From assembly GCA_005791165.1 (NCBI GenBank), contig SXXW01000025.1, positions 62,001 to 126,000 on the forward strand: a stretch of DNA of 64,000 bases, given 5' to 3'. Position numbers and translations under genes: made by a program. This DNA comes from Cytophagaceae bacterium (lineage in GTDB: Bacteria > Bacteroidota > Bacteroidia > Cytophagales > Spirosomataceae). The notes beneath the pieces were generated by a model. The model ran no database searches. It was not told where the DNA came from and saw only the letters and a program-made list of their open reading frames with translations. Below are positions 47,371 through 50,668 of this stretch, in pieces; positions within the stretch are counted from its first letter, which is position 1; every line of letters begins with the position of its first letter.

Positions 47371-48006
47371 ATGAAAATTCCTTTTTTAAAAGAAAGTTCA
47401 AGTTCAAATTTGCCATTAATTACACTTTTTGTGTTATTAATTACGCTTGCGGGTTTAGTTTTTGTTGGGTATGAGCATTTTTTAGGCCCTGAAAATAAGG
47501 AGCTGGCAAAGGCTGAAAAATTAGTCTTAGCGGAGGATGAGGAATTAATGGAGCCACCTGTGTCGATTATCACAGATTCTACGTCAACGGTTTCTTCCGT
47601 CGATAGTTCTCTAGGAAAGGATTCTGTTCAAAAAGCGGAATTAGCTTTGGAAGCACAAAAACAAGAAGCTGAGGCGCAGAAAATTCCGGAGGAAAAAGTA
47701 GTAGAGCCGAGTGGGAAAGCCTATTCGTATGCGGCGGAGAAAGGTGAATCTTTGAATGGGGTGGCTAAGCGATTTGGACTTACGGTAGACCAATTAAAAT
47801 CAATGAATCCTAGTATTTCAGATGGGTTTAAGGGTGGTAGTAAAGTAAATGTCAAAATAAAAGCGATTCACACGGTTGGCCCAGGGGATGTATTAAGAGT
47901 CGTGGCAGAAAAATACAAAGTGTCTAAAAAATCCATCATGGATGCTAATCATAAGTCGGAGGATGTGACCTTACGTGGGGAGCAATTGGTTATTCCTGTC
48001 AAATAA
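47371..48006 (+). CDS. LysM-domain protein with one membrane helix
   Basis: 211 residues. A single anchor helix (residues ~12-32, LPLITLFVLLITLAGLVFVG), then an acidic, Ser/Thr-rich linker with EAQKQEAEAQK, and two LysM domains: about 113-160 (KGESLNGVAKRFGLTVDQLK) and 165-211 (GPGDVLRVVAEKYKVSKKS). LysM domains bind peptidoglycan or chitin-type GlcNAc. It directly follows purE with no gap and overlaps the M15 peptidase gene by 1 base, so the pair may act together on the cell wall. Confidence 0.88.
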   Translation: MKIPFLKESSSSNLPLITLFVLLITLAGLVFVGYEHFLGPENKELAKAEKLVLAEDEELMEPPVSIITDSTSTVSSVDSSLGKDSVQKAELALEAQKQEAEAQKIPEEKVVEPSGKAYSYAAEKGESLNGVAKRFGLTVDQLKSMNPSISDGFKGGSKVNVKIKAIHTVGPGDVLRVVAEKYKVSKKSIMDANHKSEDVTLRGEQLVIPVK

Positions 48007-49007
48007 TGCAGGTTAAAATCGGCCTATTTTTGATTTTAATTTTTTGTGGTTTTACTGTTTTTGGAGTTCAAGAATTGGATTCATTGCAACTGAATTGCGA
48101 GAAAAAGCCTATTAAATCGCTTAATTTCGAAGATTTGCAATGGATGTTTCGTGAACGAGTTCGAGTGGAAAGTCAAGATCAAATCCCGACACATTTAGCC
48201 TTTTTCATTCAGGATGTTTCTGGCATTAAATCCCAAAATTATTCTTTTGACACTACTTTAATAAACAAGGAAAATTTATTTGCTTTAAGCAATATGACGG
48301 ACGATCCTTTGTTGGTCTGGGGAAAGACCTTGGCACAGGAAATAGAGAATTTTAAAACCTTAAAGGATTCCCTTGCTAAAGTTTTCAACCCTAGGGGATA
48401 TCGATTGAAGTTTCTCCAAAGTGAAAGAGGATTGGCTAGGCAAATGGATTTATTTAATCGGGGGCGTTCCATGACTGCTCTTTCATTGCATAATTTCAAT
48501 TTAGCGGTGGATGTAGGAATATATCGGCGTGGACGTTATTTGCGTCGAAGTAATTTATATGAACGTTTGGGTAGTATGGCAAAAGATTTGGGGGCATTTT
48601 GGGGAGGTGATTTCGTGGGTTTCCCGGATGTCGGCCATATTCAAGCATTTTCTAACGGGGCTAATTTAGTGCAAAAATTTCCTGAATTAACTTTTGAGTA
48701 TGTTCGTTTTAAAGAAATTTATGAGGATAATTATGCGAGTGCTTTGGCCCGCGGACGTGTCGATTTGGTTGAGGATACACGCCAATTAATCGTAGAATTA
48801 AATAAAAATAGGGCTCAAAAAGTTTGTGCTTGTAAGCAGGCTATTCCAATTCCTAATGAATTGTCTGCTGAATGGTTTGAGCAGTTTAAGGGCATGTCGA
48901 CGGGCTATGTATTTGCAAACCGACAAGCTGGATGGGTATATATTAAAAATGGGAACTCAGGGTATTTTTATCCTTTGGGTGTTTATTCGTTTGCGGCTAA
49001 AAATTAA
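48006..49007 (+). CDS. M15-family peptidoglycan peptidase (L,D-endopeptidase/DD-carboxypeptidase-like)
   Basis: 333 residues with a signal peptide (IGLFLILIFCGFTVFG). The M15 zinc-site motif SLHNFNLAVDVGIY corresponds to SxHxxxxAxD, and FWGGDFVGFPDVGHIQ supplies the second His after GGDF. This looks like the M15C CwlK-type subfamily. ATG 48006 overlaps the TAA of the LysM gene (TAATG), so translation is probably coupled. A C-terminal ~100-residue region after the catalytic core is unassigned. It ends convergent with fmt, overlapping 11 bases. Confidence 0.82.
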   Translation: MQVKIGLFLILIFCGFTVFGVQELDSLQLNCEKKPIKSLNFEDLQWMFRERVRVESQDQIPTHLAFFIQDVSGIKSQNYSFDTTLINKENLFALSNMTDDPLLVWGKTLAQEIENFKTLKDSLAKVFNPRGYRLKFLQSERGLARQMDLFNRGRSMTALSLHNFNLAVDVGIYRRGRYLRRSNLYERLGSMAKDLGAFWGGDFVGFPDVGHIQAFSNGANLVQKFPELTFEYVRFKEIYEDNYASALARGRVDLVEDTRQLIVELNKNRAQKVCACKQAIPIPNELSAEWFEQFKGMSTGYVFANRQAGWVYIKNGNSGYFYPLGVYSFAAKN

Positions 49008-49914
49008 AGGAATATCCGCGGAGAAAATCTTCGATTTTCATTTTCTTTTTTCCTTCCATTTGCCATTCTAGGATTTCGATATATCCATCGGCGCAACCTA
49101 CTCGGAGATATGTTTTTTGGTCGGTATCCCAAACGCCAATGCCTAAGGAAGGGATGGTTTCGGCATGAGGGCTTATGGAGCTGATTTTACAGTTTTTTCC
49201 TTGGAAAAGCGTATGTGCTCCAGGAAACGGATTCATACCCCGAATCAGATTGTATATTTCTTCGGCATTTTTTGACCAGTGGACCAAGCCGGTTTCTCTA
49301 GTGAGTTTTGGGGCAATTTTCAAATCAAGACTTTCTTTTTGCGCTTGGGGTTTAATCTGTTGGTCTACAATCGCTTGCGTTGTTTTTACCACTAAATTTG
49401 CGCCCTTTGTCATCAGTCTTTCGTATAAATCTCCTGTGGTATCTTTTGGATGAATGACCTCTGTCTCTTGAAATAATAGGTCGCCGGTATCTATTTCATG
49501 TTGAAGAAAAAAGGTAGTCACTCCTGTTTCTTTTTCACCGTTTATAATGGCCCAATGGATGGGAGCAGCCCCACGATATTGTGGCAGAAGCGATGCGTGT
49601 AGGTTAAAAGTACCCAAAGGAGGCATATTCCACACTTGTTCGGGGAGCATTCTAAAGGCCACAATGATTTGTAAATCGGCGTGTAAGTTTTTTAGGGTAT
49701 CTATGAATTCAGGATCCTTCAGTTTCAAGGGTTGCAAAATGGGCAAACCTATTTTTTCAGCGTAGATTTTAACGGGTGATGCTTGAATTTGTTGGCCTCT
49801 TCCAGCTGGTTTATCGGGCGCTGTGACAACGGCCACCACATCAAATTTTGATTGAATTAATGCATCGAGGCTTGCTACTGCGAAATCTGGAGTCCCAAAA
49901 AATATGATGCGCAT
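48997..49914 (-). CDS. fmt: Methionyl-tRNA formyltransferase
   Basis: 305 residues; formylates Met-tRNAi using 10-formyl-THF. N-terminus RIIFFGTPDFAVASLDALIQ, the formyl site AFRMLPEQVW, NLHASLLPQYRGAAPIHWAI with the catalytic Asn/His, and DTGDLLFQETEV with the catalytic Asp. The C-terminal OB-fold (RVGCADGYIEILEWQ) is present. Length is normal. def is present elsewhere in the window (60998), not beside it as in many bacteria. Confidence 0.96.
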   Translation of the reverse strand: MRIIFFGTPDFAVASLDALIQSKFDVVAVVTAPDKPAGRGQQIQASPVKIYAEKIGLPILQPLKLKDPEFIDTLKNLHADLQIIVAFRMLPEQVWNMPPLGTFNLHASLLPQYRGAAPIHWAIINGEKETGVTTFFLQHEIDTGDLLFQETEVIHPKDTTGDLYERLMTKGANLVVKTTQAIVDQQIKPQAQKESLDLKIAPKLTRETGLVHWSKNAEEIYNLIRGMNPFPGAHTLFQGKNCKISSISPHAETIPSLGIGVWDTDQKTYLRVGCADGYIEILEWQMEGKKKMKIEDFLRGYSFNF

Positions 49915-49965
49915 ATTTTAAAAATTAAAAATGAAAGAGGCGGAATTTGTCTTCGAATAAATTGT

Positions 49966-49997
49966 TTTGGGATAATATCGCTTTTTAATTACCTTTG
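49966..49997 (+). promoter_or_regulatory. Promoter of the greA leader
   Basis: TTTG at 49966-49969, a 20-base spacer, and TACCTTTG at 49990-49997 match the Bacteroidota -33 and -7 elements well. Predicted start near 50003-50005, about 135 bases before the greA ATG. Confidence 0.55.
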
Positions 49998-50002
49998 TCG
50001 GG

Positions 50003-50114
50003 TAAAAAATAAGATTACGTGTTGATAAATAAACATTTATTCTAGTTCGGCATCTGAGACAAAACTACAAATAAATTATGTAGAACGGTCGGAAGCCGTT
50101 CTATTTTGTTTTTT
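50003..50114 (+). ncRNA. Candidate greA leader RNA (~110 nt)
   Basis: Transcription from the promoter at 49966-49997 would meet the hairpin and T-rich stretch at 50081-50114 before reaching greA. The upstream neighbour on the plus strand ends ~1 kb away and fmt is on the minus strand, so this terminator serves no upstream gene. That makes a short RNA or attenuation of greA the simplest reading. No known riboswitch or sRNA family is recognised. Confidence 0.35.
50081..50114 (+). terminator. Terminator/attenuator-like hairpin in the greA leader
   Basis: TAGAACGG (50081-50088) pairs perfectly with CCGTTCTA (50096-50103), 7-base loop, followed by TTTTGTTTTTT. It ends 24 bases before the greA ATG. 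The position in the greA leader makes it a probable attenuator. Confidence 0.7.
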
Positions 50115-50137
50115 AGGAATCTAAATAAATTAGTAAG

Positions 50138-50611
50138 ATGGCACAGTTTCAATATTATACAGCTGAGGCGGTTGAAAAGTTAAAGGCTGAATTGCATTCT
50201 TTGAAATTTCAAGGACGTCAAGATATGGCAAAGCAAATTGCCGAAGCTCGAGATAAGGGAGATTTGAGTGAAAATGCTGAATATGATGCGGCAAAAGATG
50301 CGCAAGGATTATTGGAATTAAAAATTTCAAAATTAGAACAGGTCGTGGCGAATGCACGCGTATTAGATGAATCTACTATTGATATTTCTAAAGTATCCAT
50401 TTACTCGATTGTTCAGATCAAAAACACGAAAAATGGGATGATTGTTACTTATACCATTGTTTCTGAAGAGGAAGCAGATTTAAAAACGGGTAAAATTTCA
50501 GCGTCTTCTCCTTTTGGTAAAGGATTGCTTGGTAAGCAAGTGGGTGATTTAGCTCAGATTACGGCTCCCGCTGGAACCTTAGAATTTGAAATTATATCGA
50601 TCTCAAGATAA
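50138..50611 (+). CDS. greA: Transcription elongation factor GreA
   Basis: 157 residues. An N-terminal coiled coil (~1-75) carries the conserved ARDKGDLSENAEYDAAKDAQG tip with its acidic residues. A C-terminal FKBP-like domain ends in VGDLAQITAPAGTLEFEIISI. GreA rescues backtracked RNA polymerase by stimulating transcript cleavage. A promoter and a terminator-like hairpin precede the gene, and a strong terminator follows it. Confidence 0.97.
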   Translation: MAQFQYYTAEAVEKLKAELHSLKFQGRQDMAKQIAEARDKGDLSENAEYDAAKDAQGLLELKISKLEQVVANARVLDESTIDISKVSIYSIVQIKNTKNGMIVTYTIVSEEEADLKTGKISASSPFGKGLLGKQVGDLAQITAPAGTLEFEIISISR

Positions 50612-50635: not shown

Positions 50636-50668
50636 AATCCCAACCTAATTCGTTGGGATTTTTTGTAT
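50636..50668 (+). terminator. Rho-independent terminator after greA
   Basis: AATCCCAAC (50636-50644) and GTTGGGATT (50652-50660) form a perfect 9-base stem with a 7-base loop, followed by TTTTGTATTTT. It lies 25 bases after the greA stop and 10 bases before the next start codon. Confidence 0.85.

Follow-up and report, generated by a model that had tools for sequence, protein, structure and literature searches.

GreA is the protein that rescues stalled RNA polymerase. In Escherichia coli, passages of PMC6829880 report that about two thirds of the transcripts stop at the GraL terminator in front of greA, and that GraL drops about 4-fold without GreA, with catalytic GreA being required. The same passages suspect a helper factor in the GreA feedback through GraL, and they leave open both this factor and how GreA represses its own gene via the leader terminator. 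Attenuators 5' of greA and rnk were also predicted by Naville and Gautheret in 2010 (PMC2965389). Here, we describe the greA leader in a stretch of 64,000 nucleotides (the window) from contig SXXW01000025.1 of a Cytophagaceae bacterium, whose assembly comprises 2.57 Mb in 42 contigs (GCA_005791165.1), and compare it with greA leaders across the Bacteroidota. A hairpin, a T-run, their position after the promoter and covariation in the stem are all supported by this sequence comparison.

At the locus level, greA lies at 50138-50611 on the plus strand and encodes 157 aa, with matches above cut-off to TIGR01462 and NF001263. On the same strand, a -33 element TTTG (49966-49969), a 20-nt spacer and the -7 box TACCTTTG (TAnnTTTG, 49990-49997) make up a candidate promoter that matches the consensus and is supported by conservation (mean pairwise identity of the box 0.94 in the genus alignment). 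Passages of PMC9723704 place the -7 box of Flavobacterium psychrophilum at -12 to -5, and with the box in that position the greA transcript is predicted to start at about 50002. A simple sigma-70 scan gave 4 sites vs. 5.0 in shuffles, but this type of scan does not cover the Bacteroidota TAnnTTTG promoter. The hairpin (50081-50103, plus strand) has the arms TAGAACGG (50081-50088) and CCGTTCTA (50096-50103), which form 8 perfect pairs around the 7-nt loop UCGGAAG. It is followed by the T-run TTTTGTTTTTT (50104-50114, plus strand), the predicted end of a short leader RNA of about 110 nt. The promoter, hairpin and T-run were found where a preliminary description of this DNA had placed them, its start site being about 50003. 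The hairpin stands between promoter and greA on the same strand, which is the structural mark of a GraL-like attenuator, and the proposed analogy with GraL holds for this layout.

A simple terminator scan of 1.5 kb on both strands returned 4 terminator-like sites vs. 1.3 (standard deviation 1.2) in shuffles, and the terminator scan recovered the GraL terminator in E. coli K-12, about 100 nt 5' of the greA ATG. The fold of 50003-50115 had an energy of -25.1 kcal/mol (z -3.38), and 1 of 200 shuffles was equally good.

To follow the hairpin in relatives, leaders were read from 36 genomes of the same genus, 83 others of the order, 30 others of the class and 40 others of the phylum, usually with a single genome per genus beyond the window's own. 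The gene itself was detected in 58/59 relatives, 117/118 genomes of the order and all 148 genomes sampled from the phylum; G006 and G114 gave no greA match. A looser test (hairpin of at most -6 kcal/mol plus T-run within 260 nt of greA) was positive in 36/36 genus, 70/83 order, 29/30 class and 38/40 phylum leaders. The strict test (at most -8 kcal/mol plus T-run within 130 nt) was positive in 35/35, 63/83, 28/30 and 37/40 leaders, respectively, vs. 10/350, 36/830, 11/300 and 15/400 shuffles (3-4%). The hairpin counts leave out L001 (a repeat of L002), L061, L066, L090 and L091 as repeats; the short leader L028 was excluded from the strict test and the genus alignment, and L153, a poor greA match, was kept and counted as a miss.

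Further leaders displayed such a hairpin: 27 of 30 in the order of G189 (where four rows, L354-L357, repeat the genomes of L167, L168, L166 and L164), 28 of 43 in the order of G164, and 15 of 17 others, 16 of which lie outside the class and one, L234, inside. Among 20 further Bacteroidia families, 18 presented a hairpin with a T-run within 150 nt; of the remaining two, L408 and L421, L408 has a GC-rich hairpin-like repeat with no T-run. We also inspected a named set, the best 80 of 511 relatives, with titles including Flavisolibacter ginsengisoli, Niabella, Lacibacter, Terrimonas, Chitinophagaceae bacterium and some broader labels. This set may overlap the genomes read under our own handles, and all 80 have the hairpin within 200 nt. 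The preliminary description had made its proposal depend on the hairpin being conserved among relatives. The genus retains it, as do most of the leaders sampled across the phylum, and the layout extends more widely across the phylum than had been supposed. Two order members were atypical, L044 with a long GC-rich stem 18 nt 5' of the ATG and L064 with a hairpin end 175 nt 5' of greA.

The stem sequence is lineage-specific. The core AACGG..CCGTT (A or G allowed at the first two positions), followed by a T-run, occurs in 55/83 order and 35/36 genus leaders, the stem CAACG(C/T)..(A/G)CGTTG in 78/80 records of the named set, and other stems elsewhere. Covariation was assessed against shuffles on 54 distinct order leaders; the core pairs were used for selecting them, so they provide no test. 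The pair just outside the core was G-C in 26 leaders, T-A in 8, A-T in 8, G-T in 6, C-G in 4 and unpaired in two, which makes 52/54 paired vs. a shuffle mean of 29.2 and maximum of 38. The pair inside the core was formed in 53/53 leaders (shuffle mean 45, maximum 50), and the second pair out from the core in 51/54 (mean 48.3, maximum 51). Pairs further out (30, 36 and 30 of 54) were at or within the shuffle maxima, and pairs further in (33/52, 22/44 and 23/34) were within them. The core arms are spaced by 4-19 nt (search range 3-20), a G-U pair is present in 79 of the 80 named-set hairpins, and the longest T-run has a median of 5 in the genus and 6 in the other groups, with a minimum of 3.

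We are confident that the terminator belongs to greA. The upstream neighbour fmt (48997-49914, minus strand) is divergent, and the nearest long open reading frame on the plus strand (48006-49007) ends about 1.1 kb 5' of the hairpin; the preliminary description had noted no plus-strand gene upstream for the hairpin to terminate. Other genes served as controls, with a crude gene finder and without counting genes that had a gap below 60 nt or no start in the stretch. Within the genus (the window plus 20 stretches, 464 kb, two genomes), a hairpin precedes 4/120 genes with a divergent neighbour, one of them being greA, and 15/59 co-directional genes. Outside the genus, the control covered 210 loci, still including L061, L066, L090, L091 and L355 (the same genome as L310), and was repeated on 205 loci with three identical stretches skipped. 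Divergent greA genes had the hairpin in 38/43 cases vs. 3/83 for other divergent genes at the same loci (38/43 vs. 3/81 with repeats removed), and co-directional greA genes in 136/143 (131/138). When guessed from the longest ORF (open reading frame), the neighbour occupies the opposite strand in 33/36 genus (3 too short), 17/30 class and 12/40 phylum leaders, and in 32/83 order leaders (same strand 46, undecided 5). The hairpin is retained while greA's neighbour gene varies. A chance origin of the hairpin is ruled out by the shuffle, divergent-gene and covariation counts.

Regarding the distance between promoter and hairpin, TAnnTTTG lies within 130 nt 5' of the hairpin in 50/62 order leaders (control windows 21/193) and 21/28 class leaders (2/87), and between hairpin and ATG at one order and one class locus. 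Start sites were predicted from the nearest box, taken as -12 to -5. On this basis, the hairpin starts at or before +20 in 32/62 leaders of the order, 18/28 of the class, 6/36 of the phylum and 56/80 of the named set; for a start at or before +6, the counts are 14/62, 18/28, 5/36 and 28/80. The -7 box of many relatives stops a few bases short of the hairpin, and the transcript is predicted to start with its own terminator. A hairpin at or near the predicted +1 leaves no space for an upstream RNA switch or a leader peptide in those relatives, which suggests that control runs through RNA polymerase and its factors, as for GraL in E. coli. The hairpin ends 13-63 nt 5' of the ATG in 55/67 order, 23/29 class and 32/38 phylum hairpins.

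The window's genus has a longer leader, with about 80 extra bases between promoter and hairpin. The leader pattern was found in 36 of 38 genus genomes; boxes were recognised in 34 of the 36 leaders, all 34 having over 60 nt between the start and the hairpin, and two leaders lack a box. In the alignment of 30 distinct genus sequences, identity is 0.59 from the box to a putative upstream ORF (uORF), 0.75 in the uORF, 0.89 in the block before the hairpin, 0.97 in the hairpin, 1.00 in the T-run (its first 10 columns invariant) and 0.42 from the T-run to the ATG. The candidate uORF, seen in the genus only, has 8 codons (GTG...TAG, VLINKHLF, 50019-50045, plus strand), and 24/24 distinct leaders keep GTG, seven more sense codons and a stop (23 TAG, 1 TAA). 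Downstream, UCUGA (50053-50057, plus strand) may pair with UCGGA in the terminator loop (50089-50093), as a weak candidate for an antiterminator or pseudoknot; the pairing can form in 24/24 distinct leaders, with changes on one side only. A further helix, P1 (CUACA/UGUAG, 50065-50083, plus strand), ends just 5' of the AACGG core and overlaps the base of the terminator 5' arm by a few bases only; its CUAC:GUAG pairing is possible in 24/24 distinct leaders, yet invariant. Its pattern CU(A/G)C..G(U/C)AG stands directly before the core in 12/13 leaders of the families f1 (outside the genus) and f5, being missing in L062, and in 0/47 other order leaders having the core. The third pair in those 12, some of them near-identical pairs of leaders, is G-C in 6, A-U in 4 and G-U in 2. 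The upstream helix scores above 95% of shuffles in 3/13 f1/f5 leaders, vs. 5/45 for unrelated helices in other order leaders. This upstream helix is likely specific to the f1 and f5 lineages, judging by its distribution, and the extra leader sequence may add a second regulatory input in the genus.

Other explanations of the hairpin were weighed. The genus leader could be a translation-coupled attenuator, in which a ribosome on the uORF covers UCUGA, and UCUGA otherwise pairs with the terminator loop (together with CUAC:GUAG) and blocks termination. The kept frame and stop, the two pairings possible in every distinct leader, the identity of the block before the hairpin compared to that between T-run and ATG, and the f1/f5 helix with its three kinds of third pair all speak for it. 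However, the uORF starts with GTG, the region has no indels, so the frame survives without selection, no two-sided changes occur within the genus, and the helix exceeds 95% of shuffles in 3/13 f1/f5 leaders, with unrelated helices doing so in 5/45 other order leaders. Besides, the RNAalifold consensus shows no antiterminator but the terminator, lengthened where an A-rich stretch pairs with the T-run, and we regard this explanation as improbable. We think it slightly less probable still that the hairpin shields the 5' end of the greA mRNA from decay, the T-run being incidental. The leaders with the hairpin at or before the predicted +6 (14/62 order, 18/28 class and 28/80 named) suit such a role, but the T-run is kept (minimum 3, invariant in the genus), about 80 nt of RNA precede the hairpin in the genus, and the E. 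coli counterpart is a terminator in the passages of PMC6829880.

It is quite improbable that the leader acts chiefly in trans as a small RNA and lies next to greA by accident, since the stem sequence varies by lineage while hairpin and position stay, which suits a cis structure and not a conserved base-pairing seed. We give hardly any credence to the hairpin being an ordinary 3' terminator for the gene before greA, or blocking antisense reading. Such a role would agree with a co-directional neighbour at 143/186 greA starts and with the hairpins before 59/129 other co-directional genes, but it does not explain the 38/43 divergent greA genes with the hairpin, the divergent fmt in the window, or the -7 box standing before the hairpin (50/62 order, 21/28 class) and after it only once in each group. 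As for a DNA operator for a repressor, the inverted repeat in the window is indeed a perfect palindrome near the promoter; the variable spacing of the core arms (4-19 nt) and the G-U pair in 79/80 hairpins of the named set fit RNA and not a protein site, which makes an operator very improbable as well.

We return to the transcription attenuator as the preferred reading of the greA leader. RNA polymerase would start at about 50002 and meet an intrinsic terminator before greA; a share of the transcripts would stop near 50110, giving a short RNA, while the remainder would continue into greA. We consider an attenuator making a short RNA likely, and on balance we favour read-through set by the state of RNA polymerase. 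Where the hairpin starts within a few bases of the predicted start, read-through would be set most simply by RNA polymerase itself. We infer that termination takes place in the cell, that the short RNA is stable and that GreA is the effector, and the leader terminator probably lets the cell tune the amount of GreA. The acidic loop of the window GreA reads GDLSEN vs. GDLKEN in E. coli GreA, and D42 and E45 align with that loop; we take these acids to be the catalytic ones, in line with the D41A variant in PMC6829880. If GreA acts on termination, the result would be negative feedback of the kind reported with E. coli GraL. By this analogy GreA may be the attenuation effector, a suggestion that we hold tentatively and at somewhat under even chances; the alternative would be another elongation factor, e.g. 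NusA. A phylum-wide feedback appears doubtful to us, in which the transcript opens with its own terminator, RNA polymerase and GreA are the sole sensor with no RNA switch, the stem is swapped between lineages, and the system is separate from or older than the enterobacterial GraL.

Several observations weigh against the attenuator or narrow its scope. In the passages of PMC6829880, GreA-dependent termination in E. coli was not reproduced in vitro. In the window, the best single fold of the RNA is a longer alternative, with the T-run bound to the A-rich 5' end, and not the bare terminator. The roughly 80 nt before the hairpin in the genus make the argument of no room for a switch fail there. 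Outside the class, TAnnTTTG was found upstream in 8/36 leaders vs. 7/114 control windows, so the promoter position there is mostly not located. Hairpins are common before other co-directional genes (55/122 with repeats removed), so co-directional greA loci alone prove little. The strict test missed the hairpin in 20/83 order leaders and in 15/43 leaders of the order of G164. The losses include four genomes read, of six listed, from one 0.6-Mb genus, and, further, a 0.3-Mb genome. Its absence from some leaders means that greA can do without it.

Five very small genomes (L384-L388, 0.3-0.6 Mb) retain greA with no leader hairpin found, and this loss fits genome reduction. Directly 3' of greA in the window, a second hairpin with a T-run (AATCCCAACC..GGTTGGGATT, 50636-50660) is likely the 3' terminator of greA. 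We discarded the idea of a repeat or regulon: GAACGG..CCGTTC occurs at 3 sites in the window's own genome, with a T-run after the greA copy only. Over six genomes, it occurs at 19 sites, 15 with their loci inspected, and one non-greA site has a T-run (G045, L116). This L116 site, at a non-greA place in that genome, is a GAACGGTTTATCCGTTC hairpin, and T-runs are present on both strands.

Within the open-licence literature, no Bacteroidota greA leader was described among the matches listed; supplements and most subscription papers fall outside this scope, and an earlier mention is possible. The passages of PMC7366714, PMC10994844, PMC9723704, PMC2864571 and PMC8040213 name no greA leader, and the term 'bacteroid' does not occur in the main text of PMC2965389. 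The Rfam family RF01769 (enterobacterial greA leader, gathering threshold 60 bits) has no match in the window or in 11 Bacteroidota loci, and it matches E. coli (L454) with 127.5 bits. Homology with GraL thus finds no support, and the preliminary description implied none. Eight other Rfam matches at E<=10 within 49900-50160, e.g. SQ2397 and L20_leader, are far below gathering and none is RF01769, and we rejected them. At a more general level, these leaders add a large phylum to those where greA appears attenuated, and a minimal natural terminator that begins a few bases from its promoter, with no space for an RNA switch, offers a clean system in which to ask whether GreA itself alters termination.

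Compared to E. coli GraL, Bacteroidota greA likewise has an intrinsic-type terminator shortly after the promoter, a short RNA is expected, and the acidic GreA loop is kept. Unlike GraL, the Bacteroidota leaders have no covariance-model match and a different stem, with a TAnnTTTG promoter in the class. Their stem is often at or near the predicted +1 and mostly 13-63 nt 5' of the ATG, vs. about 100 nt in E. coli. The greA attenuators of Naville and Gautheret (PMC2965389) share the predicted premature terminator before greA; an antiterminator was seen in each of those, whereas many Bacteroidota leaders have no upstream space for one. The rimP-leader (PMC2965389) is similar in presenting a conserved stem without a visible antiterminator, GGGc..gCCC there and AACGG..CCGTT or CAACGC..GCGTTG in Bacteroidota greA. 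It also resembles the greA leader in preceding a set of genes, one of which encodes a transcription factor, although the gene and the stem are different.
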